A stretch of DNA of 64,000 bases from Sulfurospirillum sp. (GCA_016744795.1 JADGDR010000005.1:124001-188000); one strand, 5' to 3'; positions 152-64,000 are shown, counted from the stretch's first letter. The notes: generated from the letters alone by a model not told the origin. Program-made: numbers and translations.

Positions 152-474
152 TAGTAAGTTCACTTTTAGACTTATGTGAGAAAAATGCCAAAGAGAATGA
201 TGCAACAAAAATTACAAAAGTAGAAGTCAAGATAGGAAAACTTAGTGGTGTTGAGCCACATTTATTGCAGACTGCTTTTGATACGTTTAAAGAAAAAACT
301 ATCTGTGATGGTGCAGAGTTTTGTATACATGTACAAGAGTTAGTTGTGGGATGTAAAAAATGTGATGAACAGAGTGTTTTAAAAAACAACATCTTCGTAT
401 GTCCTAAATGCGGAGGAGACGTAGAAGTCTTAGATGGTGAAGATATGTATTTGATGAGGCTGGAAATGGAATAA
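136..474 (+). CDS. hypA: Hydrogenase nickel incorporation protein HypA
   Basis: MHEFSIVSSLLDLCE N-terminus, IGxLSGVEP motif, two zinc CxxC pairs (CKKC, CPKC). Confidence 0.95.
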   Translation: MHEFSIVSSLLDLCEKNAKENDATKITKVEVKIGKLSGVEPHLLQTAFDTFKEKTICDGAEFCIHVQELVVGCKKCDEQSVLKNNIFVCPKCGGDVEVLDGEDMYLMRLEME

Positions 475-599
475 TATTAAAGCACTAAAACTATAAAAAG
501 TAGTATATTTTAAGATATTAAGTTTTATGATGATATAATTTTATACCTATTATAAAGGTTTTAAAAGAAAAACTTATATCTTAAAAAAATAATTTTTCA

Positions 600-978
600 C
601 TTACCTCACAAGAGAAGAAACTTTTTAGTAGTGAAGTAGAGAGTATCACTTTAAATTATTTTCTGAATAAAGAAAGCATAAATATATCTCTTTTTGTTGA
701 TGAAGATAGAGATTACAGTGAAATAGCATTTATAGCTGTTGAGCTATCAAGTCCAAGAAAAATGAAACAATTCCAATCATAATCCAGCATATACCTTATA
801 CTCTTTGTATAAAAGAAATACAAAAGAGATGCTAAAAGAGATAGGACTTATAGAAATTCAAATTGTAGAGTTAAAGAACAAGATAAAGAAAGAGATAAAT
901 TTCAGTGAAAAAGTAAGCTTGAATATTGAGTTAAAAAAATTTAAAGATAAACTAAACAACTTAAAGAGTCAAATGTGA
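600..978 (+). pseudogene. Decayed gene remnant; C-terminal coiled-coil tail (…IVELKNKIKKEINFSEKVSLNIELKKFKDKLNNLKSQM*) of the kind seen at the ends of helicase- or R-M-associated proteins (DUF4391- or SNF2-like)
   Basis: Protein-like text in two frames (SEVESITLNYFLNKESINISLFVDEDRDYSEIAFIAVELSSPRKMKQFQS* then NPAYTLYSLYKRNTKEMLKE…) broken by frameshift; 3' end overlaps the start of the next CDS. Confidence 0.5.
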
Positions 979-1934
979 TATATGAATATAAAAGATTAAC
1001 GATTGATGAGTATATAAACTTTCTTTATAAAGACGGCTTACAGCACTCAGAAGCATTGAGTGAAGAAGAGATACAAAAGATGGTAGAAACTATTGGTATA
1101 TTTAGGCTCAAAGGCTATGTAAAAGCCTTTAAAAATGATTTATGCTTTTACTCTTTGGATGATTTACTTGAACTTTATAATGCCGATAAAAACATATCTT
1201 CACAAATGCTTTCTCTCTCTTCACAAATAGAGGTTAAATTAAAAGCTTATCTGATAGAAACAGTATATGAACTAACTGATAACCCATTTTTCTATCTTTT
1301 AAAAGATAGCTACATTGAGAATTTTTCTATTAACAATGAGTCTATTTATGATTGGGGAGTAAAACCAAAACATGCGAATCAAAATAGTGAAGTTTATTTG
1401 CATTATAGAGATTACTACCTAAAAAATTATGATTTTGAAGCAAATAAAGAAGTCTATCTTAAAAATAAAGAGATGATTAGATTAAATGAAGAGTTAGAAA
1501 CAAACTACCCACCATTTCACTATTTTGTAGAAAATATGACATTAGGTGCATTAATAAAACTTCTTTCAAAGTTGACTATTGATAACCAAAGTATTTTGAA
1601 GTTAATAGCAAACAAATTTAGTGTGTTGAATAAAAAAGTATTTTTAAACTACCTTTTAAGACTAAAAGAACTTCGCAATAGATGCGCTCATAATGGTAGA
1701 ATATTTAATAGAAACTATCGTAGTGTAAAAGCAATAGCTACATACAAAAAGGTTAGAAAAGAGATATATCACCATAGACTTTTGGATGTTTACTATACTT
1801 TGTATTTTTTGCTAAATGGAGCAAAAGGCATAGACAATAGTAAGAAATTGGAACAAAAATTTACAGATGAAATCTTAAAAGATAGCAAAGAAAAAATAAG
1901 AGATTTTATAATAAATAGAATGAGGAAAAGGTAA
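975..1934 (+). CDS. Abi_2 (AbiD/AbiF-like) abortive infection family protein with HEPN-type RNRCAH motif
   Basis: IGxFRLKGY…, LLRLKELRNRCAHNGRIFNR; GTG start overlapping the upstream remnant. Confidence 0.85.
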   Translation: MIYEYKRLTIDEYINFLYKDGLQHSEALSEEEIQKMVETIGIFRLKGYVKAFKNDLCFYSLDDLLELYNADKNISSQMLSLSSQIEVKLKAYLIETVYELTDNPFFYLLKDSYIENFSINNESIYDWGVKPKHANQNSEVYLHYRDYYLKNYDFEANKEVYLKNKEMIRLNEELETNYPPFHYFVENMTLGALIKLLSKLTIDNQSILKLIANKFSVLNKKVFLNYLLRLKELRNRCAHNGRIFNRNYRSVKAIATYKKVRKEIYHHRLLDVYYTLYFLLNGAKGIDNSKKLEQKFTDEILKDSKEKIRDFIINRMRKR

Positions 1935-2011
1935 GTGTGCATGCAGGGACTTACCGTAAGTGCTGAAAGTATAACATATAGAACATTAAGAAAACTTAAG
2001 GAATTGACTTT

Positions 2012-3877
2012 ATGAAAAAGATAGATGGCAATAGTATGGATATAGTAAATGAAAATATAGAAAAACTAAAAGAGATTTTTCCAGAAGTTTTTTGTGAAGG
2101 AAAAGTAGATTTTACAAAGCTTGAAGAGGAGCTTGGAAGCTTTACATGTAAAGATAATGAAAGATACAATTTTATATGGAATGGTAAAAGTGAAGCAAGA
2201 AAGATAGCTCAAACTCCTTCAAGTGGAACTTTAAGACCATGTAAAGAAGAGAGTAAAGATTGGGACACAACACAAAATCTCTACATAGAAGGTGACAACC
2301 TTGAAGTTTTAAAACTTCTTCAAAAATCATATAATAAAAAAGTAAAGATGATTTATATAGACCCACCATATAACACTGGAAAAGATTTTGTATATAAAGA
2401 TAACTTCAAAGACAATATAAAAAACTATTTAGAGCAAACAGGTCAAGTAGATAGTGATGGGAATAAACTTAGCACAAATAGTGATACAAGTGGTAGGTAT
2501 CATAGTGATTGGCTTAGTATGATGTATCCAAGATTAAAATTAGCAAGAAATTTACTTAAAGATGATGGTGTTATTTTTATAAGTATTGATGATAATGAAG
2601 TGGCTAATCTTAGAAAGCTTTGTGATGAAATTTTTGGAGAGGATAATTTTGTTTCTGATTTAGTATGGAAAAAAAGAGTTTCTCCTGCTAATGACTCTAA
2701 ATGGTATAGTAGCGACCATGAATATATTTTAATATATGCAAAAAATAAAAATTATTGGTTTCCTAATAAAACACTCAGGACAAGTGAACATAATAAATAT
2801 TATAAAAATTCAGATAACGATTCTCGAGGAGCTTGGAATTCTGCTGCGTATACTTGTAATAAGAGTCGTTCCGAAAGACCAAATTTATATTACCCAATAA
2901 CTAATCCATATACAAAAGAAAAAGTTTTTCCAGATGAAACAGCTGTTTGGGCTTATTCAAAAGAAACACATCAAGAACATATAAATCAGAAATTATTATA
3001 CTGGGGTGCTGATGGTACATCCAAAGCACCACGAAAAAAACAATTTCTTACAGAAGCAAAACCAATAGTTCCAAGAAGTGTCTTAGATTATACTGAAGTA
3101 GGAAGTACGCAAACAGCAACATTGGAAGTAAAAAATTTATTTGATGGTAGTTCCTTTACTTACCCAAAATCTATTGGATTAATACAAAAAGTTATATATC
3201 AAGGAGCCTCTGATAATGATATTGTTTTAGATTTTTTTAGTGGTTCATCTACAACAGTTCAAGCATTATTGAAACAAAATATATTAGATAATAAAAATAG
3301 AAAATTTATAATGGTTCAATTACAAGAAGAAACAAATGAAAAAAGTGAAGCTTATCAAGCAGGATATAAAAATATTTGTGAAATAGGAAAAGAGAGAATT
3401 AGAAGAGCTGGAGATAAGATAAAAGCAGAAAATACAGACAAAGACCTTTCAAATCTCGACATAGGTTTCAAAGTTCTTAAGCTTGATAGCTCAAACATAA
3501 AAGAGTGGGATAGTGATTTTGATAACCTTGAAAAAACTCTTGAAGATAGCATAGAAAACATAAAATTAGACAGAACAAGCCAAGACCTAATTTATGAGAT
3601 ACTACTAAAATACGGATTAGACTTAACCCTTCCAATAGAAGAAAAACTCATAGACAACAAAAAAGTATATATCATAGGCTTTGGAGCATTAGTGGTGTGC
3701 CTTGACGACAACATAACAACAACCACAGTAGAACTCATAGCAAACATAAAAGAAGAGTATGAAACAGAAACAATGAGAGTAGTCTTCAAAGACAGCAGTT
3801 TCGCAGATACAGTAGCAAAAACAAATGCAATTCAAATTTTAAAACAAAATGGCATTGATGAAGTTGTGAGTGTTTAA
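2012..3877 (+). CDS. mod: Type III restriction-modification DNA methyltransferase (Mod)
   Basis: DPPYNTGKDFVYKDNF motif, DWLSMMYPRLKLARNLLKDDGVIFISIDDNE, DFFSGSSTT; followed by Res. Confidence 0.95.
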   Translation: MKKIDGNSMDIVNENIEKLKEIFPEVFCEGKVDFTKLEEELGSFTCKDNERYNFIWNGKSEARKIAQTPSSGTLRPCKEESKDWDTTQNLYIEGDNLEVLKLLQKSYNKKVKMIYIDPPYNTGKDFVYKDNFKDNIKNYLEQTGQVDSDGNKLSTNSDTSGRYHSDWLSMMYPRLKLARNLLKDDGVIFISIDDNEVANLRKLCDEIFGEDNFVSDLVWKKRVSPANDSKWYSSDHEYILIYAKNKNYWFPNKTLRTSEHNKYYKNSDNDSRGAWNSAAYTCNKSRSERPNLYYPITNPYTKEKVFPDETAVWAYSKETHQEHINQKLLYWGADGTSKAPRKKQFLTEAKPIVPRSVLDYTEVGSTQTATLEVKNLFDGSSFTYPKSIGLIQKVIYQGASDNDIVLDFFSGSSTTVQALLKQNILDNKNRKFIMVQLQEETNEKSEAYQAGYKNICEIGKERIRRAGDKIKAENTDKDLSNLDIGFKVLKLDSSNIKEWDSDFDNLEKTLEDSIENIKLDRTSQDLIYEILLKYGLDLTLPIEEKLIDNKKVYIIGFGALVVCLDDNITTTTVELIANIKEEYETETMRVVFKDSSFADTVAKTNAIQILKQNGIDEVVSV

Positions 3878-5043: not shown

Positions 5044-5046
5044 ATA

Positions 5047-8281: not shown

Positions 8282-8309
8282 AATAAAGCTTTACATGTAA
8301 AGCTTTATT
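8282..8309. terminator. Perfect 28-bp palindrome with TTTACATGTAAA core between convergent genes; likely bidirectional terminator
   Basis: aataaagctttacatgtaaagctttatt, followed by a T-rich run; lies between convergent ORFs 8034-8267 and 8305-10002. Confidence 0.7.
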
Positions 8310-10012: not shown

Positions 10013-11242
10013 TTACTTAACTTCTTTTTCTCTCAATTTATCTTTTTTACTTTTTCGTTTTCCCTTGACTGGGGCTTTGCCTTTCTCTTTTCTAGGAGCA
10101 ACTCCTGTTAGTTCAAAACCTTTTATTTGTTCTAATTCAAGCTTTATTTCACATCTTTTTTCTATAAGTTTGAAGTGTTCTGCATTGTCATGAGTTACAA
10201 AGCTTATAGCATCTCCAGATTTTCCTGCACGCGCAGTTCTTCCTATGCGGTGAATATAATCAGCAGGGGAACGAGGTAGGTCGAAGTTTACCACACAATC
10301 AATATCGTCAATGTCGAGTCCACGTGCGGCTATGTCAGTAGCAAATAGTATATTTATTTTTTTCTCTTTAAAATCTTCGAGAGTATATTTTCGCTCTTCT
10401 TGTTCTAGATTTCCATGAAATGATTCTGCTTCATAACCATATTTTCTGAATTTTTGAGCTATATTATCAGTTGCTCTTTTTGTTGCCATAAATACTAAAA
10501 CTAGTTTCCATTTATGAGTTTTTAAAAGCTCTCTTAATAACACTCTTCTATTTTCTTGGTTTACATGTAAAGCTCTTTGTTTTATATTATCTACTGTTTG
10601 TTTCTCTTCTTTTATTGTAACTTCTACAGGATTTTTTGTAATCTTGGAAGCTATCTCTTGCATTTTTGGAGGAAAGGTAGCTGAAAAAAGTAGGTTTTGT
10701 CGCTTTGAAGGTAACTCTTTTAGTATGGTGTCGAGTTCTTGAGCAAAACCAAGGTCAAGCATTTTGTCGGCTTCATCAAGTACAAAGAACTCTAGTTTTG
10801 ATAGATTCATCTGTTTTTTACTTATAACATCAAGAAGTCTACCAGCAGTTGCAACTACTATGTCACATCCTTGTTGGATGTCATAAAGTTGTTCACCAAT
10901 GCTCTCACCACCTATGATGCTTACCACTTTTGGTTTTTTCTCTAAGAATTCACTAAAAGTTATAAATGCATCTGCTACTTGTTGGGTTAATTCCCTTGTT
11001 GGAGTTATAACAAGTACTCTGATTTTAGCCTTGCCTTCTCTTTCGTCATTTGCTAACATCTCTAAGATAGGCAGAACAAAACTAGCTGTTTTTCCACTAC
11101 CCGTTTGAGCTCTTGCCATAATGTCTTTTTTCTCTAAGACTAGAGGGATCACTTTTTCTTGAATTGGTGTTGTTTGTTTAAAGTTACTTTTTGTTAATGC
11201 TTTGTGAATTTGAGTTAAAAAATTGAATTTATCAAATGTCAT
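10013..11242 (-). CDS. DEAD-box RNA helicase, RhlE-like
   Basis: [28 protein letters not shown] box, [10 protein letters not shown]. Confidence 0.93.
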
Positions 11243-11290
11243 TTGATTCCTTTTGTGATTGTCTGCTATTATACAATGAAAGGCTTTATA

Positions 11291-13288
11291 ATGAAATTAT
11301 TATCTATATTATTTACATGTATATTGCTTTTTGGCTCATCTACTAATGCTCTTATTAACTCACAATCTCCGTACTTGCTTCAACATGCACATAATCCTGT
11401 TAATTGGTACCCTTGGAGTGATATAGCACTTCAAAAAGCTAAAGATGAGAATAAATTAATTTTTCTTTCTATTGGTTATAGTACTTGTCACTGGTGTCAT
11501 GTGATGGAGGAAGAGAGTTTTGAAAACACAGAGATTGCAGAACTTCTAAATCAAGATTTTATAAGCATAAAAGTAGATAAAGAGCAGATGCCTCATATAG
11601 ATACACATTTTCAACACACCCTTTCTCTTCTAAAAGAACAGAGAAAAGGCTGGCCACTTAGTGCAATACTCACTCCAAATCAAGAAATTCTTTATATCAC
11701 GACTTATATTCCTCCAACTGATAGTTATGGTGTTGATGGTATGAAAACATTAGTCCCAAAAATGGTCAAACTTTATAGAAACAATAAAGACAGAGTGGCT
11801 AAAATAGTAGAAGCAAATAAAAAGATTATATTAAAAAAAAGTGTAGTAGAAAAAAGTACAATTAAAAAGAGTGAGATTGCAAATCAATATGTCTCTTTGA
11901 TGAAAAAAAGATATGACAAGATATATGGAGGATTTGATAGAAATCCAAAATTTCCTTTAGCAACTCATATGAAAACTTTGTTAGATATATATCTTTTGGA
12001 AAACAATCAAGAAGCACTTAGTATGGTTAAAAGCAGTTTAAAAGCTATGAGTACAGGAGGGATATATGATCATGTTGAAGGTGGCTTTTATAGATATAGC
12101 ACATATTCAGATTGGATTATTCCTCACTTTGAAAAGATGCTTTATACCCAAGCCGAGTTGATTTCTTTATATGTAAAATTTTACATACTTTTTCCAGAGC
12201 CTCGATATAAAGCCATAGTTTTAGATACTATTAAAGAGATTGACAAAAGACTTGGTTATAAAGGCTTGTATTTTAGTGCAACAGATGCTGATAGCAAAAA
12301 TGGAGAAGGACGTTATTTTGTTTACTCTTATGAGGAAGTATTGTCTGCTTTTAAAAAAGCAAATATAAAAAACTACGAAGAAGTTATGGAGTACCTAGAT
12401 ATAACAGAGATTGGCAATTTTGATGAGGAATTGAGTAATGTTCATCAAAACACTGGTTTTGATAATGAACCAAAAAATGTACAAAAAGCTTTACATGTAC
12501 TAAAAAAACTCAGGCTTAAAAGAGATTTTCCATTTGTAGATAAAAAGATACTTACTGGGTGGAATTCATTGATGATAAAATCTATTTTTATTGCTTCATA
12601 TTTTGATGAAAGTTTCACTTTTAAAGCTGAAAAATCAATGAGAGAGTTACTAAAAAAAGTTTATATCAAAGGAGTTCTCTATCATGGTTTTTATCTTGAT
12701 AAAGAAGCTGTTGATAAAGCTGTTTTAGAAGACTATGTGTTTCTTATAGACTTACTTCAAACTGCTTACATGTACACACAAAATAGGACTTATCTTAGTT
12801 TGGCTGGTTATCTTCAAAAAGAGACTTTAGCTAAGTTTTATGAAAATAAGAAGTTTTATCTTGATGATACTAAGTTTAGAGCTTTAGCACAGTATGGAGA
12901 CAAGTACTACGTTTCACCACTTTCAGAATTTTATCATACACTTTTTACTCAAGCAAATTTAACTTATGATTTAAAACTTTTAGCGCGTACAAGAGGATTT
13001 TTAGCTGATGAGAGAGATAGAATACTTCAACATCCAGATCAAGCTTCACAAGCAGTTTTAGCACTCTTGCGTTCTGATTATGGTGATGTTTTGATAAAAT
13101 CAAATAAAAAGAACTTACTTGATAAACAAAAAGATATTTTACATATAAGGTACCCATTTACATTACAAGCAACACAAAATACAGATAAATATCTAGCATG
13201 TGATGAAAAAACTTGTTTTGCGATAGACAAAGAGTTTAAAAATATAGTAAAATACATAGAAAACTATAAAGGAACTATAAAACAATGA
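11291..13288 (+). CDS. Thioredoxin-domain DUF255 protein (YyaL/SPATA20-like)
   Basis: [43 protein letters not shown]; start moved to the ATG at 11291 (signal-peptide-like [17 protein letters not shown]). Confidence 0.93.
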
Positions 13289-13782: not shown

Positions 13783-14414
13783 TAAAATCAGTCATATTTG
13801 ATATGGATGGAACACTTTTAAACTCAAGTTACGCTATGACATTGAGTGTAAACCATGTTAGAAAAAGTTATGGATTAGGACCTATACAAAAAGACTATTT
13901 AGAATACATTATAAATGAACCATCAATAGATTTACCTATGGAACTTTATGATGTAAAAGAGTATAGCCAAGAACATAGAGACCGTTTTGCCAAGCACTAT
14001 TTAGCAAATGCCAATCTACATGTAAAACCTTATGAAGGTGCATATGAGCTTTTAAAATCTTTACATGTAAAGGGTGTGACTCTTTGTATAGCAACTAATG
14101 CTGCAGACTTTTTTGCACGTAATATGTTACAAGGGCAGGGAATGCTTGACTTTTTTTCTTTTGTTATTGGTTCAAATAATGTCGAACATTCTAAACCAAA
14201 TCCAGATATGCTGCATCATATAAGTGAGTTAAGCAAGATTCCTTTAAGCAAAAGCCTTTTAGTTGGTGATAGCATTAAAGATGAAGGCGCAGCACACAAT
14301 GCAAACATGGATTTTCTTTTTGTTGATTGGGGTTATGGTAAGAGTGATAAGCCTACAAAATCTTTTAAAGATATGACAAGACTCAGTAACTACTTGCAAA
14401 CTAGAATACAATAG
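13779..14414 (+). CDS. HAD family hydrolase (phosphoglycolate phosphatase-like)
   Basis: FDMDGTLLNSS, CIATNA, SKPNPDML, VGDSIKDEGAAHNAN. Confidence 0.9.
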   Translation: MIKSVIFDMDGTLLNSSYAMTLSVNHVRKSYGLGPIQKDYLEYIINEPSIDLPMELYDVKEYSQEHRDRFAKHYLANANLHVKPYEGAYELLKSLHVKGVTLCIATNAADFFARNMLQGQGMLDFFSFVIGSNNVEHSKPNPDMLHHISELSKIPLSKSLLVGDSIKDEGAAHNANMDFLFVDWGYGKSDKPTKSFKDMTRLSNYLQTRIQ

Positions 14415-16055: not shown

Positions 16056-16083
16056 ACTAGCCCTTTACATGTAAAGGGCTAGT
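16056..16083. terminator. Perfect 28-bp palindrome actagccctttacatgtaaagggctagt; terminator-like hairpin
   Basis: 14-bp arms with TTTACATGTAAA core, just downstream of the decayed dehydratase remnant on the minus strand. Confidence 0.6.
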
Positions 16084-23188: not shown

Positions 23189-24242
23189 ATGGTATGGTAA
23201 GACTGATAAAATACCACTTAAACATATATCTCAAATTCCTGGTATTGATGGGGTTGTTACATCGTTAATGCATATTCCTGTAGGTGAAATATGGGAGCTT
23301 GATGAGTTAATTGAACTTAAAAAAGAGGTTAACTCTTATAATCTAAATCTTGATGTTATAGAGAGTGTAAATGTTCATGAAGACATTAAATTAGGACTTC
23401 CTTCACGAAAAAAATATATAGAAAATTACAAAACAACTCTAAGAAATCTCTCTAAAATTGGCGTTAAAACAGTTTGTTATAATTTTATGCCAATATTTGA
23501 TTGGACAAGAACAGATTTGATGAAACCTCTTAAAGATGGTTCAACAGTTCTTAGTTTTGACAATGAAACATTAAAAAATTCAACAGCAAATGATCTTTTA
23601 GATATTATAAAAAATGGCTCAAAAGATATTATTATCCCTGGTTGGGAGCTTGATAGACTTAGTGAAATTGAAGAACTTTTTAAACAGTATAAAGATGTAA
23701 GCGAAGAAGATTTATGGAATAATTTAAATTATTTTCTTCAAGAAATTATTCCTGTAGCAAAAGAGTGCAATATCAATATGGCTATACATCCTGATGATCC
23801 ACCTTTTTCTATCTTTGGACTTCCACGAATCATTACATGTAAAGAAAATTTACAAAGATTAGTAAAATTAGTAGATGATACTCACAATGGAATAACACTG
23901 TGTTCAGGCTCACTAGGACCAAATAAGTGCAATGATATTCCTCAACTTGTTAGACACTTTGGGAAAATGGGCAGAATCCATTTTGCTCATATACGAAATA
24001 TAAAACATGATGGTGATAAGAGTTTTCATGAGACTTCTCATTTATCAAATGATGGAAGTTTAGACCTCTATGAGATAGTAAAGGCATATAAAGATGTAGG
24101 TTTTGAAGCTCATGTAAGACCAGATCATGGCAGAATGATATGGGATGAAGATGGAATGCCTGGATATGGGCTTTATGATAGAGCTTTAGGAATAGCTTAT
24201 CTAAACGGATTATACGAAGCAATAATTAAAGAAAACAAATGA
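23172..24242 (+). CDS. uxuA: Mannonate dehydratase
   Basis: MTFRWYGKTDKIPLKHISQIPGIDGVVTSLMHIPVGEIW; MAIHPDDPPFSIFGLPRI; RPDHGRMIWDE. Confidence 0.97.
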   Translation: MKMTFRWYGKTDKIPLKHISQIPGIDGVVTSLMHIPVGEIWELDELIELKKEVNSYNLNLDVIESVNVHEDIKLGLPSRKKYIENYKTTLRNLSKIGVKTVCYNFMPIFDWTRTDLMKPLKDGSTVLSFDNETLKNSTANDLLDIIKNGSKDIIIPGWELDRLSEIEELFKQYKDVSEEDLWNNLNYFLQEIIPVAKECNINMAIHPDDPPFSIFGLPRIITCKENLQRLVKLVDDTHNGITLCSGSLGPNKCNDIPQLVRHFGKMGRIHFAHIRNIKHDGDKSFHETSHLSNDGSLDLYEIVKAYKDVGFEAHVRPDHGRMIWDEDGMPGYGLYDRALGIAYLNGLYEAIIKENK

Positions 24243-25153: not shown

Positions 25154-25748
25154 GTTTAAAAATTCACCTGTAATTCCAGTTTTAACTTTAGATAATGTAG
25201 ATGAATCTCTAAAGATAGCTGAAGTTTTAGTGACTAGTGGACTAAGTAACTTAGAAGTTACTCTAAGAACTCCAAATGCTTTTAAATGCATAGAAGCAAT
25301 AAAAAAAGAGTTTTCAGAAGCTTTTATAGGTGCTGGAACATTGGTAAAAAAAGAGCAATTTCAGCAGGTAAAAGATATAGGATGTAGTTTTGCTGTAAGT
25401 CCAGGATTTACTGAAGCTTTAGTATATGAAGCTAAAAAAGTAGGTATCTCTTATCTTCCTGGGGTATCTACTCCAAGTGAGATTATAAGGCTAAGAGAGC
25501 TTGGGGTAAGCTTTCAAAAGTTTTTTCATGCGAGCAATAGTGGCGGATATAAGATACTACAAGCTTATTCAAACATATTTACAGACATAAAATTTTGTCC
25601 AACTGGTGGAATACAGCAGGAAAATTATCAAGAGTATCTAAAACTTAACAATGTACTATGTTTAGGTGGTTCATGGATGGTATCTAAAGGGTGTTTAAAA
25701 GATAAAAATTTTACTTTACATGTAGAAGAGATAGTAAAGAATTTTTGA
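25143..25748 (+). CDS. eda: 2-keto-3-deoxy-6-phosphogluconate aldolase
   Basis: [46 protein letters not shown]. Confidence 0.95.
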   Translation: MLNKFKNSPVIPVLTLDNVDESLKIAEVLVTSGLSNLEVTLRTPNAFKCIEAIKKEFSEAFIGAGTLVKKEQFQQVKDIGCSFAVSPGFTEALVYEAKKVGISYLPGVSTPSEIIRLRELGVSFQKFFHASNSGGYKILQAYSNIFTDIKFCPTGGIQQENYQEYLKLNNVLCLGGSWMVSKGCLKDKNFTLHVEEIVKNF

Positions 25749-28024: not shown

Positions 28025-30123
28025 TCTTTCAAGGATATAGATACTCGATTTTTTTCCAAATCTACACTTAAAATCCTTAGATTTTTAAATTGTTGATTTA
28101 TATGCATTACGTCCATTAGGTGTGAAATACGTTTATGGGAATATTCAGAAATATGTAAAAGTGCGTCATTTTTAAGTCCAATATCTATAAACGCACCAAA
28201 ATCGGTAATATTCCTTACTACTCCACTTACAAAATCTCCCTCTTTTAATTCGTCAATATTTTTTATATCTTCACAAAAAGAGACTTGTTCTAACTCTTCA
28301 CGTATATCGTAACCAGGTTTTTGAAGCTCAATTACTATATCTTTTAGACTTTCAACACCACAATTAAAATCTTTTGAGAGTTCTTGAAGTAAATTATTGT
28401 CTATTTTTTCTAATTCAAACTTTTCTTTTATATATTTTGCTACTTTATAGTTTTCAGGATGAATCCCACTATTGTCTAAAAAAGACTTGCCATTTTTAAT
28501 GCGTAAAAAACCAACACTTTGTTCGTAGGCTTTTGTTCCTAAACCCTTTACATGTAAGAGTTCTTTCTTACATGTAAAGCCTTTAATTTCATCTCTATAA
28601 GTTATGATATTTTTTGCTAGTCTTTCGCTAATACCTGAGACAAAAGAGAGTAATTTATATGAAGCAGAGTTTAAATCTACTCCTACTCTATTTACTAGGT
28701 TGTATGTAATTGCACCGAGTTTTTTAGCTAAGTCGCTCTGATTTACATCATGTTGATACTGTCCAATACCAAGAGATTTTGGATCTATTTTTACTAAAGT
28801 TGCCATGGGGTCACGAAGTCGTCCTGCTATAGAGATTGCACCTCGTATTGTTACATCTAAAAAACCATACTCTTCTTGGGCTATTTTTGAAGCAGAATAG
28901 ATTGAAGCTCCTATTTCGCTAACAACTGCATATTTTACAGCTAATGTGTTTTTGTTTATCAAATCAGATATAAACGTGGCACTCTCTTTTGACCCAGTTC
29001 CATTGCCTATGGCAATTGCTGTTATTTTGTATTTTTTAATTAGGTTTAGAACTATCTGAGAAGCTTTTTTTGTATCGCTTAAAAGATATATGACATCAGA
29101 GTCCAAATATAAGCCATTTTCATCGATGACCGCTAATTTACATCCTGTTCTAAATCCTGGATCTATTCCGAGTATAATTTGTCCCATTAAAGGTGGAGTT
29201 ATCAAAAGTTCGTTTAGATTTTTACCAAAAAGGTTTATCGCTTCATCACTTGCTTTTTGTTTTAAAGCTGAGAGTAATTCTCTTTTAAGGCTTGGAAGCA
29301 GAAGTCTTTTTAGTCCATCTTTATAGGCTTCAAATACATATATGCTTGAAGAGTTTGCATGTTTAGGGATACGATACTGTTTTATTCCATTTATGAGATA
29401 TTCCTCATCAGATTCTATCTTTAAGCTTAGCTGTTTTTCATTGACTGCTCTAAAAATGGCTAGAAGTCTATGAGATTTTATGTAAGTTACTTTTTGGTTT
29501 ATTTTTGCCAAATCTTTGTAAAGTCCATTTTCTTCAAAGGTTTTTGTCTTTTTTGTTACAAGTTGTCCATGATTTAAAAGGTTTTTTCTAAGCGCATCTT
29601 TTGTTCGTATTTCTTGTGAATAACGAAGAGCAATGATGTCCCCAGAACCCTTTAACGCATCGTCTATACTCTTTACATGTAGAGACAAAAAACCTTTTGC
29701 TTTTAGTTTGATTTCATCACTAGAGTGCCTCATAGTTGAAATAATATTTGCTAATGGTTCAAGTCCATTTTTTACAGCTTCATCGGCCCTTGTACTTTTT
29801 GTACCTTTGAATGGTTCATAAATATCTTCTAAAGCAGTAAGTGTTGTTGCAGTGCCAAGTAACTCTTGAAGTTTAGGTGTAAAAACTTCTTTTTCTTTGA
29901 GTATATTTGAAATTTCATCTTTTCTTTTGAAAAGTTTTTGCGTATATTCATACACCTCTTGAAATTTTAAGAGGACTTCATCACTCGCATTATTTGTCAT
30001 ATCTTTTCTATACCGTGCTATAAAAGCTATAGTACACCCTTCTTCAAGCATAGAGATGATGTTTTTTATGCTCTTATCGTCTAAATTAGTTTTTGTTTTT
30101 ATGATATTTATAATATTGTTCAT
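28021..30123 (-). CDS. tex: Tex family RNA-binding transcription accessory protein (S1 domain)
   Basis: CTIAFIARYRKDMT, ILGIDPGFRTGCKLAVID, GISERLAKNIITYRDEIKGF, VVRNITDFGAFIDIGLKNDALLHISE. Confidence 0.97.
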   Translation of the reverse strand: MNNIINIIKTKTNLDDKSIKNIISMLEEGCTIAFIARYRKDMTNNASDEVLLKFQEVYEYTQKLFKRKDEISNILKEKEVFTPKLQELLGTATTLTALEDIYEPFKGTKSTRADEAVKNGLEPLANIISTMRHSSDEIKLKAKGFLSLHVKSIDDALKGSGDIIALRYSQEIRTKDALRKNLLNHGQLVTKKTKTFEENGLYKDLAKINQKVTYIKSHRLLAIFRAVNEKQLSLKIESDEEYLINGIKQYRIPKHANSSSIYVFEAYKDGLKRLLLPSLKRELLSALKQKASDEAINLFGKNLNELLITPPLMGQIILGIDPGFRTGCKLAVIDENGLYLDSDVIYLLSDTKKASQIVLNLIKKYKITAIAIGNGTGSKESATFISDLINKNTLAVKYAVVSEIGASIYSASKIAQEEYGFLDVTIRGAISIAGRLRDPMATLVKIDPKSLGIGQYQHDVNQSDLAKKLGAITYNLVNRVGVDLNSASYKLLSFVSGISERLAKNIITYRDEIKGFTCKKELLHVKGLGTKAYEQSVGFLRIKNGKSFLDNSGIHPENYKVAKYIKEKFELEKIDNNLLQELSKDFNCGVESLKDIVIELQKPGYDIREELEQVSFCEDIKNIDELKEGDFVSGVVRNITDFGAFIDIGLKNDALLHISEYSHKRISHLMDVMHINQQFKNLRILSVDLEKNRVSISLKD

Positions 30124-33103: not shown

Positions 33104-33116
33104 AAACTCTTTCCTT

Positions 33117-34397: not shown

Positions 34398-36235
34398 GCT
34401 AACAACTCTTTTAAATCATCACTTATGCTAGATTCTAGTTTCTTTATATCTTTCATGATATCTTCAAAAGAATCAAGTTTTTTATACTCATAAAAGTGTC
34501 TTGTAAAAGGAAGTTCATACCCTATATTCTCAAAGGTACTCGAATCCGGCCAAGATGAAACCAAGTGAGGTTTTACCTCTTCGTGGTAGTACTCTAAGAT
34601 ATCTTTTTTCAAAGGTATAGACTCACTATCTTTTGCTATGAGTAGGTTTTGTTGGCTTGGTGTAAGCTTTACATGTAAAGACTTTATAAACTCATCTTTA
34701 CATGTAAACGCTGTTTTTTCTTTTTCTATATCTTTGAGTCTTTGTGCTATGGTATCTTTACATGTAAGCTTTTCAAATTTCTCTTTTTCTTTTTCATTTT
34801 CAAGGATTTCGTTTAATGCTTTTGGTCGCTCAACACTTACTTTTGTAAAGCCAAAGTCACTGTTGTCAAAGAGTTTAGAGTTTTTAGAACTCTCAAAAGC
34901 TTTGTATAGTTTTTCTATCTCTATGATTTGTGCTTCGTCTATGAACTTTCTTTTACTTCCTAGAGATTTTCTCATAGGTTTTGAAAAGTCTGAGGCATTT
35001 ACAAGCTGTATCTTGCCTTTTCTTTTTTTGCTCTTCTTATTTGTAAGAACCCAAATGTAAGTAGAAATGCCTGTGTTGTAAAAAAGGTCAGTTGGTAGGG
35101 CTATTATGCCCTCTAACATATCGTTCTCTATTATCCACTTTCTTATGTTACTCTCACCACTTCCTGCATCACCCGTAAAAAGAGGTGAGCCATTGAAGAT
35201 GATAGCTATACGACTTCCTTCCTTATCTTTCACCATCTTTCTTATCATGTTTTGTAAAAAAAGCAGTGAGCCATCGCTAACTCTTGGTGTTCCTGCTCCA
35301 AATCTTCCATCAAATCCATATGTTGCATGTTCACTGTTGACATAAGCTTGCTCTTTTTTCCACTGCACACCAAAAGGAGGATTTGAGATAAGATAACGAT
35401 AGTGTTTTGCTTTGTGTCCATCATCTATAAGTGTATTACCAAAGGCTATGTTGTTTGTATCTTGTCCTTTTATAAGCATGTCTGCTTTACAAATAGCATA
35501 AGATTCGTCGTTTATTTCTTGGCCGTAAAGTTCTACTTTTGCATCTTTGTTTTTACTTAAAATGTACTTTTGACCGACTGAGAGCATACCACCCGTTCCA
35601 CAACAAAAATCTGCTATTGAGATAACTTTACCTTTTTTGCCTATTTGCTCATCTTTGTCCATAAAAAGCATTTTCATACAAAGCTCTATCACTTCTCTTG
35701 GAGTGTAGTGGTCTCCTGCTTCTGCATTTTCTTTGAACTTTCTGATTAACTCTTCAAAGATATAACCCATGGTTTGGTTGTCTACTCTTTTTGGATGTAA
35801 ATCAACTTCATTAAACTCTTTAATAACATAGTAAAGTTGATTGTTTTTTGCTAGTTTGTCTATGTCTTTGTTAAAATCAAAGTGAGAAATAATATCTTTT
35901 ATATTTGAAGAAAAACCTTGAAGATAGTTTATGAAGTTCTCTTTTAAGTTATCTTGGTCATCACATAAATTATCAAATCCAAATGAAGAGATATTGTAAA
36001 AATCCAAACCATCAAGCTCAGTTTTTATGAGCTCTTCTTGTGAGGCTTCAGGAATGTCCTTGTAAAGTTTATAAGCTTTTAAAATAGCCTCTTTTTTTTC
36101 GTTGATTATTTCATCAAACCTTTTAATCACACACATTGGGAGTATGACATCGCCATATTTTTCAGGTTTATAAACTCCTCTTAGGCTCTCGGCTATTTGC
36201 CAGATCAAGTTTATTTTGTCGTTAAAGTTTATCAT
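34394..36235 (-). CDS. hsdM: Type I restriction-modification methyltransferase subunit M
   Basis: AGDHYTPREVIELCMKML, ADFCCGTGGMLSVG, ISNPPFGVQW. Confidence 0.97.
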   Translation of the reverse strand: MINFNDKINLIWQIAESLRGVYKPEKYGDVILPMCVIKRFDEIINEKKEAILKAYKLYKDIPEASQEELIKTELDGLDFYNISSFGFDNLCDDQDNLKENFINYLQGFSSNIKDIISHFDFNKDIDKLAKNNQLYYVIKEFNEVDLHPKRVDNQTMGYIFEELIRKFKENAEAGDHYTPREVIELCMKMLFMDKDEQIGKKGKVISIADFCCGTGGMLSVGQKYILSKNKDAKVELYGQEINDESYAICKADMLIKGQDTNNIAFGNTLIDDGHKAKHYRYLISNPPFGVQWKKEQAYVNSEHATYGFDGRFGAGTPRVSDGSLLFLQNMIRKMVKDKEGSRIAIIFNGSPLFTGDAGSGESNIRKWIIENDMLEGIIALPTDLFYNTGISTYIWVLTNKKSKKRKGKIQLVNASDFSKPMRKSLGSKRKFIDEAQIIEIEKLYKAFESSKNSKLFDNSDFGFTKVSVERPKALNEILENEKEKEKFEKLTCKDTIAQRLKDIEKEKTAFTCKDEFIKSLHVKLTPSQQNLLIAKDSESIPLKKDILEYYHEEVKPHLVSSWPDSSTFENIGYELPFTRHFYEYKKLDSFEDIMKDIKKLESSISDDLKELLA

Positions 36236-36301: not shown

Positions 36302-36838
36302 TTATCTGATAGTCTTTACATGTAGTCTCATAGCCTTTAAAATTTCATATGTTTTACTAACATCATAAGTAGCACTGTGATGTGAGTCTTCATCAAAATC
36401 TATTTTGTAGAACCTACAAGTCTCGTCTAGTTTTGGATTTTTAACCTTGCCATTTTTGTTTAGAGCTTTTACTATGTGTCTATTTTCTTTCATGGTACAA
36501 AAATGATTTTCAAACTCTACTATTTTGTAAAGATGACGAAGTTCAAAGCTTATGTTGTGTGCTACTAGAGTTTTAACACCCTGACAAAATTCTACAAAAT
36601 CTAAATCTTCTTTAAAATATACACTATGAGTCTTATCTTTTCTATACTCCATTATCATCTCAGGTGTAAGTTTATGCACCTCATATGAGTACTTGTTAAC
36701 TGGATGACGAGATAGATAATAACGATGAAACATATCTTTTACTACATATTCCCCATTTTCAAATTCTACCTTTGCCGCAGCCACTTCTATGACATCGTGT
36801 TCGTTTGTACTATTAGTTTCAAAATCTAGAATTATCAA
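36302..36838 (-). CDS. DnaQ-like DEDDh 3'-5' exonuclease
   Basis: IILDFETNSTNEHDVIEVAAAKVE, VAHNISFELRHL, HHSATYDVSKT. Confidence 0.85.
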   Translation of the reverse strand: MIILDFETNSTNEHDVIEVAAAKVEFENGEYVVKDMFHRYYLSRHPVNKYSYEVHKLTPEMIMEYRKDKTHSVYFKEDLDFVEFCQGVKTLVAHNISFELRHLYKIVEFENHFCTMKENRHIVKALNKNGKVKNPKLDETCRFYKIDFDEDSHHSATYDVSKTYEILKAMRLHVKTIR

Positions 36839-43246: not shown

Positions 43247-43289
43247 ATTTTATCCTTTACATGTAGAATATTAGCAAAATAAAGTTCCA

Positions 43290-45740: not shown

Positions 45741-47249
45741 TTGCACGATATAGTATTATGTACATTTAACGCTAGATATACTCACACTTCATTAGGCTTA
45801 AGATATCTTTTTGCAAATCTCAAAGAACTTCAAGAAAATGCTGTCATAAAAGAGTTTGTTATAAACTCACAAGTTGCAGATGCCCTCGAAATTGTTTTGT
45901 CACAAAATCCAAAAATAGTTGGTGTTGGAGCATATATTTGGAATGCAAATGAAGTAGGAGAGTTTATAGAACTTCTCAAAAAAGTTGCTCCTCATATAAC
46001 TATAATCGCAGGTGGTCCTGAAGCTAGTTATTTTCCTCATAGAGTTGATTTTAGTAGTGCTGATTATTTTATTCAAGGGGAGGGCGATGTAGCTTTTTAT
46101 GAACTTTGTAGAGATATTTTTGATAACAATGCTCCCAAAAATAAGATAATAAAAGCAGATATTGTAGATTTAAGTAAAATTGAACTTCCATATGCATATT
46201 ATACGGATAATGATGTTCAAAATAGACAGTGTTATGTTGAAGCAAGCAGGGGTTGTCCCTATTCATGTGAATTTTGTCTTTCTGCTTTGGACAAAAAAGT
46301 TAGAAAGATAGATACAAATCGTTTTTTAAAAGAGATGGAAATTCTTTGGGATAGAGGTGTAAGAAGTTTTAAGTTTATAGATAGAACTTTTAATCAAGGC
46401 ATAGGAACTGCAAACAAACTAATGGACTTCTTTCTTTCAAAAGAGCCTCCGTACTTCATACATTTTGAAGTTATTCCTGATAACTTTCCAGAATCTATAA
46501 AACAAAGAATAAAAGAGTTTCCTCTGGCTTCTCTACAGCTTGAAGTTGGCATACAGACATTAGACCCTGAAATATCTAAAAATATATATAGAAAATTAAA
46601 TTTAGAAAAAATAAAAAAGAATCTAGAGTTTTTAGAAAACTGCACATTAGCCCATTTACATGTAGACCTTATCATAGGACTTCCTGGAGAGAGTTTAGAA
46701 CAGTTTGGTAAAAATCTTGATTTGCTTTATGGAATGACAAGGTGCGAAATACAACTAGGCATTTTGAAAAAACTCTCTGGAACTACACTAAATCGTCATG
46801 ACGAAATACATGGTATGGTTTATTCTCATAAACCTCCTTATGACATAGTTCAAAACAATCTAATTTCATTTGCAATGATGCAAAAGGTAAAACGTTTTAC
46901 TAGGTTTTGGGATATGGTATATAACAGTGGGAATTTCAAAAAATCGGTCATATACCTTTTTGCAGATGGAAAAGTCTATGATGGTTTTTTTGCATTTTCC
47001 CAATGGATATATGCCCAAACAGAATCAACTTGGCAAATTTCATTAGATAGATTAGCGCATCTAGTTTACAGATACGTTACAGAAGTCTTACATGTAAATG
47101 AAGAAGAGTTTAAACAAGTTATGACAGATGATGTAATGGTTGTACGAGGCAGAAAATTACCAAAGTTTTTAAGAGTAGAAATAGAAAATAAAAAAAGTAG
47201 AAAACAAGAGGCTAAAACTTTTAATAAAAGGCAATTAAAACATCTTTAA
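45741..47249 (+). CDS. B12-binding-domain radical SAM protein (DUF4080-like)
   Basis: N-terminal cobalamin-binding-like domain, EASRGCPYSCEFCLSALDKKVR (CxxxCxxC), HVDLIIGLPGES. Confidence 0.9.
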   Translation: MHDIVLCTFNARYTHTSLGLRYLFANLKELQENAVIKEFVINSQVADALEIVLSQNPKIVGVGAYIWNANEVGEFIELLKKVAPHITIIAGGPEASYFPHRVDFSSADYFIQGEGDVAFYELCRDIFDNNAPKNKIIKADIVDLSKIELPYAYYTDNDVQNRQCYVEASRGCPYSCEFCLSALDKKVRKIDTNRFLKEMEILWDRGVRSFKFIDRTFNQGIGTANKLMDFFLSKEPPYFIHFEVIPDNFPESIKQRIKEFPLASLQLEVGIQTLDPEISKNIYRKLNLEKIKKNLEFLENCTLAHLHVDLIIGLPGESLEQFGKNLDLLYGMTRCEIQLGILKKLSGTTLNRHDEIHGMVYSHKPPYDIVQNNLISFAMMQKVKRFTRFWDMVYNSGNFKKSVIYLFADGKVYDGFFAFSQWIYAQTESTWQISLDRLAHLVYRYVTEVLHVNEEEFKQVMTDDVMVVRGRKLPKFLRVEIENKKSRKQEAKTFNKRQLKHL

Positions 47250-48883: not shown

Positions 48884-50071
48884 TCAATCCTCCAACATCT
48901 TTATACTACGCTCAAGCGCATAGAAAAATTTATCTATATCTTCTTTTGTATTGTAAAGACCAAAACTAATCCGTACAGTTCCTTTAATCCCTAAAGACTT
49001 CATGGTTGGTTGTACACAATGGTGACCAACTCTAATTTGAACCCCTTGTTTGTCTAGTAAGACTCCTAAGTCGTAATGATGTATGCCTTTTATATTAAAA
49101 CTTATATTTCCTGTAGCATTTTTAGTATCCGTGTATCTAATAAGATTCTTTACATGTAAAAGTTTTTCATTTGTGTAAGCTATGAGTTCTTGTTCATGTT
49201 TTTGTATAAGATTAAATCCAATATTTCTTATATATTCTAAGGCACTTGCAAAGCCAATAGCTCCAGCAATATGCTGAGTACCAGCCTCATACATATAAGG
49301 AATTGGCATATACACAGTTTTTTCATAAGTCACTTCTTTAATAGCGCCACCACCACCTTGAAATGCCTTGCACTTTTCATGTAAGTCTTTTTTGATATAT
49401 AATGCTCCAATACCTGTAGGACCATAAAGTTTATGGGCTGAGAGAACTAAAAAATCAGCATCTAAGTCTTGAACATCAATAGCACTATGAACAGAGCTTT
49501 GAGCAGCATCTACTAAAACCTTAGAACCATACTTGCGTGCTAATTGAATCATCTCTTTTATTGGATGTGTAATTCCAAAAGTATTTGAAGTTTCGACTAA
49601 TGAGACAAAACTATTGGGGTAAGATTTTAATAAACTTTCAAAATGTTCAAGGTCTACATGTAAATCTTTTTTAAAATCTATTACATGTAAAGATTTATCT
49701 ATAATTTGCCAAGGAATAATGTTTGAGTGATGCTCTAAGCCAGAGATAATTACATGTTTAAAATGCTCTTTAACATAAGCATATGCCACTAAATTAATTC
49801 CCTGTGTTGCTCCACTTGTAAAAACAATTTCATCTTTAGTTTTTGCGTTTAGAAATTTGGAAACTGTTTGTCTTGCATTTTCATATTCTTGTGTTGCTTT
49901 ATTTCCCAAGCCATGCGCTGATCTATGTATATTTGCACAATATGATTTATGAAATTCATTCATAGAATCAAGTACTATCTGAGGTTTTTGAGCAGTTGCT
50001 CCACTATCTAGATATACTAGCTTATTGTTTTTAAAAAAAGGAAAATCATTTTTTAGAGTATTGATATTCAT
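48884..50071 (-). CDS. sufS: Cysteine desulfurase SufS
   Basis: YLDSGATAQKPQIVLD, VLSAHKLYGPTGIGALY, VRVGHHCVQP-type C-terminus; start moved to MNINTLKNDFPFF. Confidence 0.95.
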   Translation of the reverse strand: MNINTLKNDFPFFKNNKLVYLDSGATAQKPQIVLDSMNEFHKSYCANIHRSAHGLGNKATQEYENARQTVSKFLNAKTKDEIVFTSGATQGINLVAYAYVKEHFKHVIISGLEHHSNIIPWQIIDKSLHVIDFKKDLHVDLEHFESLLKSYPNSFVSLVETSNTFGITHPIKEMIQLARKYGSKVLVDAAQSSVHSAIDVQDLDADFLVLSAHKLYGPTGIGALYIKKDLHEKCKAFQGGGGAIKEVTYEKTVYMPIPYMYEAGTQHIAGAIGFASALEYIRNIGFNLIQKHEQELIAYTNEKLLHVKNLIRYTDTKNATGNISFNIKGIHHYDLGVLLDKQGVQIRVGHHCVQPTMKSLGIKGTVRISFGLYNTKEDIDKFFYALERSIKMLED

Positions 50072-57193: not shown

Positions 57194-57707
57194 AAAATTT
57201 AGAAAAAAATCGCCTTGGATTTTACATTATAATGCGGGAAGTTGTAATGGGTGCGATATAGAAATATTGGCCTCATTAGCTCCAAAATATGACTTAGAAC
57301 GTTTTGGTATCATCAATACTGGTAATCCTAAACAAAGTGATATTTTACTAGTTACAGGTCCTGTCACACTAAAAAGTAGAGAACGTTTAGTTGAACTTTA
57401 CTCACAAATGCCAGAACCAAAGGTAGTTGTGGCTATTGGTGTTTGTACATGTACAGGTGGTGTTTTTAGAAAAATGTACAATGTAAAAGCGGGTGTTGAC
57501 AGATATGTTCCTGTAGATGTTTATGTACCAGGTTGTGCTTCAAGTCCTGATCAAATCATAGATGGAGTTGTTCAAGCATTGGCTATATTGGAAGAAAAAA
57601 GTAAGGACATAGAAAAACCAAAACGTCTTTTTGGTGAACTTACAAATAATTCAATATTTACAAACAGAAGAGAAATGGCAAAAAAGATAAAACATGAAAA
57701 AAATTGA
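57186..57707 (+). CDS. Group 4 hydrogenase small subunit, NuoB/CooL-like
   Basis: HYNAGSCNGCDIEILASLAPKYDLERFGI, IGVCTCTGGVF, VYVPGCASSPDQIIDGVV; start ATG at 57186. Confidence 0.94.
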   Translation: MFEKFRKKSPWILHYNAGSCNGCDIEILASLAPKYDLERFGIINTGNPKQSDILLVTGPVTLKSRERLVELYSQMPEPKVVVAIGVCTCTGGVFRKMYNVKAGVDRYVPVDVYVPGCASSPDQIIDGVVQALAILEEKSKDIEKPKRLFGELTNNSIFTNRREMAKKIKHEKN

Positions 57708-59117: not shown

Positions 59118-59530
59118 TAAGTGCAATAACAAAAGCTTTTAGTAATTTACTAAAAAAGCCATATACATGTAACTATCCAGTTACTCCTGTTATCAAACCA
59201 AAAAACTATCGTGGTTTGATTAAATTTAATGATGAATACTGTATTTGGTGCGATAAGTGTGAAAAAGTTTGTCCTCCAAATGCAATAATCTTTAAACAGT
59301 TTGAAGATGGTCATAAAGTCTATAACTACAATCCATATTTATGTATTTATTGTGGAGATTGTATACGAGCTTGTCCTAAAACTGGTGATGCACTTTGGCA
59401 ATGTGAAGAAAAAGGATTGCCTTCTATCTCTAAAGATGCTCCAAATGATGATTGGTTTATTTTGGAAAAAGAAGCTAAACAGAGCCGTGAGAATTACAAG
59501 GCAATAAAAGCTGCAAAAAAGAAGAGCTAA
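59114..59530 (+). CDS. Group 4 hydrogenase 2x[4Fe-4S] ferredoxin subunit (CooX/HyfH-like)
   Basis: CIWCDKCEKVCPPNAI, CIYCGDCIRACPKTGDALWQC; ATGA overlap with the large-subunit stop. Confidence 0.92.
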   Translation: MISAITKAFSNLLKKPYTCNYPVTPVIKPKNYRGLIKFNDEYCIWCDKCEKVCPPNAIIFKQFEDGHKVYNYNPYLCIYCGDCIRACPKTGDALWQCEEKGLPSISKDAPNDDWFILEKEAKQSRENYKAIKAAKKKS

Positions 59531-59579: not shown

Positions 59580-59721
59580 TAAATTCTTAATCTCAGAGTC
59601 AATGAGAAAGACATCTTGTGTTGTAATACAGTATTTATCTTAATACTTTTCATAATTTAAATCATGTAAACATTAGTAATACATAAAAATTAGTGTATAA
59701 TTGCAAAAATTTAGGATTATT

Positions 59722-60563: not shown

Positions 60564-60591
60564 ATATTTTCTTTACATGTAAAGAAAATAT
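60564..60591. repeat. Perfect 28-bp palindrome with TTTACATGTAAA core
   Basis: atattttctttacatgtaaagaaaatat, about 31 nt upstream of the NMT1-GGDEF start. Confidence 0.85.
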
Positions 60592-60622
60592 ATGATACAA
60601 TAGTATATTGGAGGATGAGCTA

Positions 60623-62619: not shown

Positions 62620-63308
62620 ATATAGAAAAAATTAAGCTAGAGTTAAAAGACAAAAGTACAAAAGATGTTTTAGAGTACTTTTTAAATGAGTTACATGTAA
62701 ACATTGCTTTAGCTTCAAGTCTTAGCATAGAAGATCAAGTTTTAGCAGATATGCTTTATGGTATCAAAGAAGATGCAAAAATATTTACTCTTGACACGGG
62801 AAGGTTACCAAAACAGACTTATGAATTGATTGAGAAGACAAATAACAAATACAAGCAAAAAATAAAAGTTTATTTTCCTCAAACAAAAGCAGTAGAAGCT
62901 TTAGTAAATGAAAAAGGTATGTTTAGTTTTTACAACTCCATAGATGAGAGAAAAGAGTGTTGTTTTATTCGAAAAATTGAGCCACTAAAACGAGCATTAA
63001 AAGGGATTGATATTTGGATAACAGGACTAAGACGTGACCAATCTGTAACAAGAGATAAGATGGAGCTTATTGAGTGGGATGAAGGTAACGGATTGTTAAA
63101 ACTCAACCCTCTCATAGATTGGAGTGAGGAAGACGTTTGGGCACACATAAAGTTCAACAACGTTCCGTACAACAAACTTCACGATGAAGGTTACCCAAGT
63201 ATTGGCTGTGAGCCATGTAGTCGAGCCATTAAAAATGGTGAAGATATAAGAAGTGGAAGATGGTGGTGGGAAAACCCAGAACACAAAGAGTGTGGTTTAC
63301 ACAACTAA
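62616..63308 (+). CDS. cysH: Assimilatory (phospho)adenylylsulfate reductase
   Basis: [53 protein letters not shown]; the paired Cys motifs suggest APS reductase type. Confidence 0.94.
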
Positions 63309-63321
63309 ATATGGAATGAGC

Positions 63322-63360
63322 GGGACAGGTTGCTTTTACAAAGTAAAAGATGCCTGTCCC
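63322..63360. repeat. Bulged long hairpin, REP-like, between cysH and cysD
   Basis: gggacaggttgcttttac-aaa-gtaaaagatgcctgtccc, 8-bp lower and 7-bp upper stem. Confidence 0.6.
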
Positions 63361-63381
63361 CGAAAACAATATGGAGACAAA

Positions 63382-64000
63382 ATGAAAAACAAAAGAAATT
63401 TGACACATTTACGTCAGCTTGAAGCTGAATCAATACATATTATGAGAGAAGTCATAAGCGAATTTGATAACCCAGCTATGCTTTATAGCGTAGGAAAAGA
63501 TAGTGCGGTAATGTTGCATTTGGCTATCAAAGCATTTTACCCATCGAAACTACCATTTCCTCTTTTACATGTAGACACTACATGGAAATTTAAAGAGATG
63601 ATAGAGTTTCGTGATAAGCGAGTAAAAGAGTTAGGTTTAGACTTGCTTGTACATGTAAACCCTGATGGTTTAGAGCAAAATGTAGGACCTTTTACTCATG
63701 GAAGCAAAGTTCATACTGACATAATGAAAACGGAAGGTCTAAAACAAGCACTAAATAAGTACAAATTTGACGCAGTTTTTGGTGGAGCTAGGCGTGATGA
63801 AGAGAAAAGTCGTGCAAAAGAGAGAATTTACTCTTTTCGTGACAAATTTCATAGATGGAATCCAAAAGAGCAACGTCCTGAGCTTTGGAACTTGTATAAC
63901 GCTAAGGTTAATGAAGGTGAAAGCATTAGAGTATTTCCACTTTCAAATTGGACTGAACTCGATATTTGGCAATATATTTACCTTGAAGGTATTCCTATTG
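63382..64000 (+). CDS. cysD: Sulfate adenylyltransferase subunit 2 (CysD), truncated by the window end
   Basis: [81 protein letters not shown]. Confidence 0.96.

Follow-up and report, generated by a model that had tools for sequence, protein, structure and literature searches.

Introduction

What keeps an eight-letter palindrome, TACATGTA, in place at 31 positions within 64,000 nucleotides of one bacterial genome? The stretch concerned, referred to here as the window, comes from Sulfurospirillum sp. (GCA_016744795.1 JADGDR010000005.1:124001-188000) and belongs to an assembly of 2.68 Mb in 30 contigs with ∼30% G+C (labelled G000), whose source is an A+T-rich genus within the Sulfurospirillum family of the Campylobacterota. 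A sequence-only reading of the window had noted the repetition, likened it to HIP1 of cyanobacteria and listed four possible roles (DNA uptake signal, methylation target, nucleoid-protein site and product of mismatch or recombination bias) without choosing among them. The analysis reported here indicates that the word is maintained at the DNA level by strong selection or drive.

Materials and methods

TACATGTA is termed the core, TTTACATGTAAA the full 12-mer and CTTTACATGTAAAG the 14-mer. The pattern YTACATGTAR denotes the core with its pyrimidine/purine flanks and was counted against the reversed pattern as control. Genome-wide results combine pattern counts with ∼460 kb of sequence stretches; from the 458 kb sample of the window genome one clustered regularly interspaced short palindromic repeat (CRISPR) array containing 44 copies of TACATGTA was taken out before counting. 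Positions relative to genes were counted in 1.24 Mb from five genomes, with genes defined by simple open reading frame (ORF) calls. The distribution survey covered 44 genomes of the Sulfurospirillum family, one genus of which is designated g3, and 299 genomes across the order, including the Sulfurimonas family (f17).

Abundance of the palindrome

An exact recount of the window returned the 31 cores and nine full 12-mers that had earlier been counted by eye; most of the start positions then listed were correct or off by one, and the entry 47099 should read 47089. Dinucleotide shuffles of the window contained 1.67 cores on average and six at most. In the window, 62 occurrences were counted on both strands against 2.65 expected under a third-order Markov model (∼31 sites against 1.3). 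Across the whole assembly the exact 12-mer occurs 310 times, compared with four for the reversed pattern, and YTACATGTAR 1,107 times, compared with 11. In the 458 kb sample the excess increases with word length, from 213 observed and 8.8 expected for TACATGTA to 58 and 0.26 for TTTACATGTAAA and 23 and 0.008 for CTTTACATGTAAAG. The palindrome is thus at least tenfold over-represented chromosome-wide, in genes and between them, as is characteristic of highly iterated palindromes (HIPs). The CRISPR repeats are not the cause, since the enrichment persists after removal of the 44 array copies.

Core variants with one mismatch among the inner four bases of either half occur at background level (10 observed, ∼8 expected), and recognition of the core is therefore near all-or-none; the outer positions tolerate T or C. 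The conserved unit is the TACATGTA core with its pyrimidine/purine flanks, of which TTTACATGTAAA is merely one dialect.

The possibility that the word is a by-product of codon or peptide usage (LHVK and FTCK being the obvious candidates) draws on the fact that 92 of the 194 ORF sites in the sample read LHV, but it has a negligible chance of being correct. When codons were shuffled with all proteins held fixed, a mean of 41 genic copies of TACATGTA was obtained, with a maximum of 55 in 40 shuffles, compared with 175 observed. The peptide LHV is itself in sevenfold excess (101 observed, 14.7 expected) and FTCK in ∼60-fold excess (19 observed, 0.3 expected), and the word is densest outside genes. 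Codon shuffling, the LHV excess and the intergenic density together refute this explanation, and the refuting condition that the sequence-only reading had set, enrichment fully explained by codon-pair usage, does not hold. The word dictates codons and even peptide content, and its origin lies at the level of the DNA.

Conservation and distribution

Between Sulfurospirillum species that carry a solitary D12-class adenine methyltransferase (described below), 77–91% of the sites are kept at orthologous positions at 77–85% DNA identity, compared with 17–39% of composition-matched 8-mers (p values as low as 3e-10), a difference that indicates upkeep by selection rather than drift, as in HIPs. In two genomes without the enzyme, G016 and G018, which branch among the carriers in an acnB tree, the retention is 23% and 22%, respectively, compared with 18% and 22% for control words.

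YTACATGTAR is enriched in 43 of the 44 Sulfurospirillum-family genomes, with up to 1,635 copies (1,176 in G014) and 0–18 copies of the reversed control. The single exception is G009 (eight copies, nine for the control), and the enrichment in G016 is weak (73 and 18). In the survey of 299 genomes across the order, enrichment outside this family is confined to the Sulfurimonas family, where it is sporadic: seven genomes contain 499, 440 (G154), 347, 306, 270, 99 and 63 copies, the remainder are control-like or only slightly raised, and rich and poor species occur within one genus. All remaining sampled families are near the control.

The dialects share a CATG centre and differ in their flanks, with TTTACATGTAAA dominant in most Sulfurospirillum genomes, CTACATGTAG in G001 and AACATGTT in G002; the extended flanks are species-specific, the form in the window genome being YYTACATGTARR. 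In G009, ATCATGAT is mildly over-represented (32 against 10 in 120 kb), which may reflect a shift in the dialect of that genome's D12 enzyme. DNA uptake sequences (DUS) likewise combine copy numbers in the hundreds to thousands with species dialects around a fixed core. Two further observations concern related words. In a stretch from G089, of the Sulfurimonas family, TGGCGTTT is ∼20-fold over-represented, at an apparent G+C content of 22% that is possibly lowered by masked bases. In a few viral contigs (L149, L160), possibly from phages of these hosts, CTTTACATGTAAAG occurs three or four times over a short distance of some kilobases.

A candidate partner enzyme

In the window genome, the gene for the solitary D12 methyltransferase lies on the plus strand at G000:C23:205771-206733 (L279:3772-4734), outside the window and ∼18 kb past its right end, where it overlaps trmA. 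It encodes a member of a protein class of ∼320–335 residues with an MNYIGSK start and a DPPY motif. The protein matches Pfam PF02086 (E=2e-47) as well as the PADLOC profiles for type II and orphan methyltransferases; it has no sequence match in the PDB. Its predicted model is a confident one (pLDDT 84) and finds its best fold match in Escherichia coli Dam, with a template-modelling (TM) score of about 0.4. PF02086, the DPPY motif and the Dam-like fold place the protein in the D12 class and, together with the lack of a restriction gene beside it, make it resemble Dam and the PADLOC orphan methyltransferases; the similarity to Dam is only distant. D12 genes in these genomes adjoin trmA or metabolic genes, with no restriction gene adjacent. 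The enzyme is thus a solitary adenine methyltransferase without a cognate restriction enzyme, like CtsM of Campylobacter. The D12 enzymes of the Campylobacter-like family were considered as candidates for CtsM itself, an identity that was not supported: they are mostly ∼327–337 residues long from the MNYIGSK start and are missing from several genomes. CtsM of C. coli is 1,095 bp.

Site number and the enzyme are statistically linked, albeit imperfectly. Within g3, the 14 genomes with a D12 gene contain 509–1,635 sites and the five without it 73, 226, 294, 563 and 1,098 (p=0.0006, uncorrected for phylogeny). Within the Sulfurimonas family the gene is present in five of seven rich genomes and four of 29 poor genomes (p=0.006, likewise uncorrected). 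No association with the word was seen for PF01555 methyltransferases. The rich genome G005 lacks an intact D12 gene, but at the syntenic location, upstream of trmA, a weak relic survives; the alignment score of the relic is 64, compared with a shuffled mean of 39, and one of 300 shuffles scored as well. This relic would fit a recent loss of the gene. In G008 only a C-terminal piece of the D12 gene is kept.

Genomic anatomy

The sites are ∼4.4-fold denser between genes than within them (∼1.8 and 0.41 per kb). Gaps between convergent genes are the richest (3.15 per kb), followed by tandem (1.75) and divergent gaps (1.07), and within tandem gaps the sites lie closer to the 3′ end of the upstream gene (69 against 36). 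Neighbouring sites are 20–22 bp apart in 19 cases, compared with 1.05 expected. These pairs have complementary inner arms that are able to form hairpins (e.g. CTTTACATGTAAGGA-GTGT-TCCTTACATGTAAAG), are mostly intergenic and are usually no more than ∼30 bp away from a stop codon. An intergenic excess with close inverted hairpin pairs after stop codons is also seen in DUS; in Neisseria, closely spaced inverted DUS repeats near stop codons are described as acting as terminators (PMC2397512), and the pairs described here are candidates that may do the same.

On the larger scale, the sites show no gradient from origin to terminus in G030 (rho 0.23, p 0.34), and even spacing at the 20 kb scale is not significant (dispersion 0.87, p 0.38), G000 being over-dispersed. 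A stretch of 35.5% G+C, probably an island, contains few sites. The 40 kb plasmid of G007 contains 14 sites, compared with 0.5 expected, and bears its own D12 gene. That gene, on the 39.9 kb contig G007:C2 (L317, L318), is divergent in sequence and has four copies of the palindrome inside it; a concentration of sites in the methyltransferase gene, considered as a general feature, is true of this plasmid copy only.

The window genome also contains a type II CRISPR-Cas locus (G000:C7:151500-154600; L089) with Cas9 (959 residues), Cas1, Cas2 and at least 44 repeats of GTTATAGCTTCCGTTCCTACATGTAAATGCTATAAT. Each repeat includes TACATGTA, just as HIP1 sits in a CRISPR repeat of Synechocystis.

Comparison with known systems

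The likeness to HIP1 drawn by the sequence-only reading is apt. HIP1 (GCGATCGC) and the alternate HIPs of cyanobacteria are likewise short palindromes, tens-fold over-represented in genes and between them, with species-specific palindromic extensions, and are likewise tied to solitary methyltransferases and found inside a CRISPR repeat (PMC4390886, PMC6604393). TACATGTA differs from HIP1 in sequence and phylum and in being A+T-rich with a CATG centre, and we have seen no reported HIP1 counterpart of its concentration at gene 3′ ends or its hairpin pairs. The word has the defining features of a HIP, except for a proven methyltransferase.

The second likeness is to the DUS of Neisseriaceae and the uptake signal sequences (USS) of the Pasteurellaceae, which share with TACATGTA some 1,000–1,600 copies per genome, dialects around a fixed core and an intergenic excess. 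The mean spacing is near 1.8 kb here and 1.1–1.5 kb for neisserial DUS, and inverted hairpin pairs near stop codons are common to both (PMC2397512, PMC3630211). On our analysis, the copy number, spacing, dialects, gene-end bias and hairpin pairs are hallmarks of DNA uptake sequences. Known DUS and USS have no known need of methylation, and no receptor of the ComP type has been identified for TACATGTA. The word lacks the asymmetry of DUS, and it is therefore put forward as DUS-like in its working and not as a classical DUS.

The third likeness is found within the same order. C. jejuni takes up only DNA carrying a palindrome that is methylated by the solitary enzyme CtsM (PMC8468864, PMC8627207), so that the system of C. 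jejuni and C. coli combines a solitary adenine methyltransferase, a palindromic target and uptake that needs methylation. The CtsM target RAATTY occurs ∼28,000 times and hence, unlike TACATGTA, is not a rare iterated word; CtsM and the D12 enzyme are likened here by description and not by sequence kinship.

Interpretation

We favour, with moderate confidence, the explanation that TACATGTA is a genome-wide self-identity word, most likely the target of the solitary D12 enzyme, that is used as a DNA uptake sequence when cells are naturally transformed. The D12-class adenine methyltransferase would target TACATGTA; the word, methylated or otherwise recognized, would act as the uptake sequence, and incoming DNA carrying it would be preferentially taken up or recombined. 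The word would therefore build up wherever it is permitted: in genes, between them and, in inverted pairs, close to the ends of genes. A methylated self-DNA word is favoured because of the DUS-like anatomy, palindromy and methyltransferase link of the word, because of the CtsM precedent in C. jejuni and because methylation of plasmids by the HIP1 enzyme is cited as raising the transformation of Synechocystis 11–161-fold (cited in PMC6604393). Two of the four roles first proposed, uptake signal and methylation target, are each supported indirectly and would apply together; the nucleoid-protein site and mutational or repair bias remain as rivals. The further idea that such a palindromic, methylation-dependent uptake word makes HIP-type and DUS-type elements one and the same is tentative, and we lean somewhat against it.

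Several observations weigh against the favoured explanation. We infer both the methylation of the word by the D12 enzyme and its role in uptake from genome comparisons. Seven genomes (G154, G271, G028, G005, G001, G008 and G012) have many sites without a full-length D12 gene, and four (G009, G089, G296 and G076) have the gene without enrichment of TACATGTA. Close D12 homologues also occur in ∼40 genomes of other families that show no enrichment; having an enzyme of this family is therefore not enough, and the specificity assigned to it here is putative. Either specificity varies within the enzyme group and other enzymes can substitute, or the D12 enzyme is a frequent companion of the word and not its cause. 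Known DUS and USS are non-palindromic, and the hairpin pairs have no obvious T-tract. ComEC, of the DNA-transport machinery, is present in all 43 genomes checked, which suits uptake; it is found with or without sites and hence does not discriminate. Loss of competence was rejected as the reason for the loss of sites in G016, G018 and G009, in which ComEC is still present.

Three rival explanations share much of this evidence. The palindrome could be HIP1-like in function as well as form, marked by the solitary methyltransferase for methyl-directed repair or another chromosomal process with no role in uptake. Its palindromy, genic and intergenic spread, species-specific flanks and methyltransferase link all agree with this, as do the same linkage in HIP1 and the alternate HIPs (PMC4390886), the loss of retention in G016 and G018, both of which lack the enzyme, and the presence of the word in the CRISPR repeat of G000. 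A role of this kind gives no reason, however, to expect the concentration at 3′ ends or the hairpin pairs beside stop codons; one-mismatch cores are neither depleted nor enriched, so that repair by conversion of near misses has left no direct trace, and several rich genomes have no enzyme. We regard it as unlikely, though a serious contender. That the word is bound by a nucleoid or chromosome-organizing protein appears improbable: a density of about one site per 2 kb over the whole chromosome, the absence of an origin-terminus trend in G030 and close pairs spaced by two helical turns would suit it, but it does not predict hairpin pairs at 20–22 bp near stop codons, the complementary inner arms of these pairs and their location suit hairpins better than side-by-side binding, the small plasmid is also dense in the word, and there is no candidate protein.

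The huge enrichment, spread across unrelated genes, could also be the non-adaptive product of biased mutation, gene conversion or a spreading short mobile palindrome, and it is in keeping with this that, where a site is found in a single species, the ortholog usually departs from it at several bases together. Against this, sites are kept far above words of the same composition, the word forces amino-acid content and non-shared sites mostly align without an insertion. Mutational or repair bias does not predict the hairpin pairs either, and gene conversion biased by way of transformation would amount to the uptake model. A non-adaptive origin is very improbable.

Sites in the window

The first of the 31 cores is at 326–333 (324..335). 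The next site, a full TTTACATGTAAA at 2141..2152, lies in the methyltransferase gene (2012–3877) of a type III restriction-modification system; the complete pair spans 2012–8031, with an uncharacterized gene of 388 residues between the modification and restriction genes. A full 12-mer at 8290..8301 lies in the gap between two convergent genes, one of them a UvrD-like helicase gene (8305–10002, minus strand) whose stop end is 4 bp away, and another at 10560..10571 lies within a helicase-like gene (10013–11242). ORF 11243–13288 contains cores at 11314 (11312..11323), 12492..12499 and 12767..12774. In ORF 13779–14414 the core at 14017 (TCTACATGTAAA; 14015..14026) is followed 45 bp away by a full 12-mer (14060..14071), and a further 12-mer at 16064..16075 is intergenic, upstream of ORF 16741.

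No full 12-mer is present between 16,076 and 34,667, as the sequence-only reading had noted for the region that it called the hexuronate cluster; this is a weak point, since cores occur there at 23834 (23832..23843) and at 25717 (25715..25726), the latter near the 3′ end of ORF 25143–25748. The clusters that it described are real: the pair in tex at 28549 and 28569, 20 bp apart (28547..28578), the pair in sufS at 49655 and 49682, 27 bp apart (49653..49691), and three copies within ∼100 bp of hsdM. The last of these comprise two full 12-mers 29 bp apart (34668..34708) and a third core (34757..34768); hsdM belongs to a type I restriction-modification system (hsdR, hsdS and hsdM; 30134–36235). 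Further copies lie in tex (core at 29674; 29672..29683) and sufS (full 12-mer; 49149..49160).

The remaining cores are in ORF 36302–36838 on the minus strand (36317..36324), in an intergenic gap at 43258 (43256..43267), in ORF 45741–47249 at 46657 (46655..46666) and 47089 (47087..47098), in ORF 57138–57707 (57446..57453), in ORF 59093–59530 (59164..59171), in ORF 62616–63308 at 62692 (62690..62701), at 63566 (63564..63575) and, last of all, at 63650 (63648..63659). An intergenic full 12-mer at 60572..60583 is flanked by ORFs 59701–60426 and 60608–62224.

Implications

Our literature search returned nothing relevant on TTTACATGTAAA, on TACATGTA or on uptake sequences in connection with Sulfurimonas, and as far as we could find an iterated word of the uptake type has apparently not been described before in Sulfurospirillum or Sulfurimonas. 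The word joins the anatomy of DUS to a methyltransferase link of the HIP1 type, in an order with proven methylation-dependent uptake. It is present in several strains that are in culture and have closed genomes, some of them with the candidate enzyme and some without. If the tentative idea that HIP-type and DUS-type elements are one and the same is correct, a solitary methyltransferase and its iterated palindrome would define the partners in gene exchange in Sulfurospirillum and Sulfurimonas, and HIP1 of cyanobacteria, the purpose of which has been open since 1995, could be a system of the same kind. The word would also offer a practical handle on the genetic tractability of these dehalogenating and sulfur-cycling bacteria.

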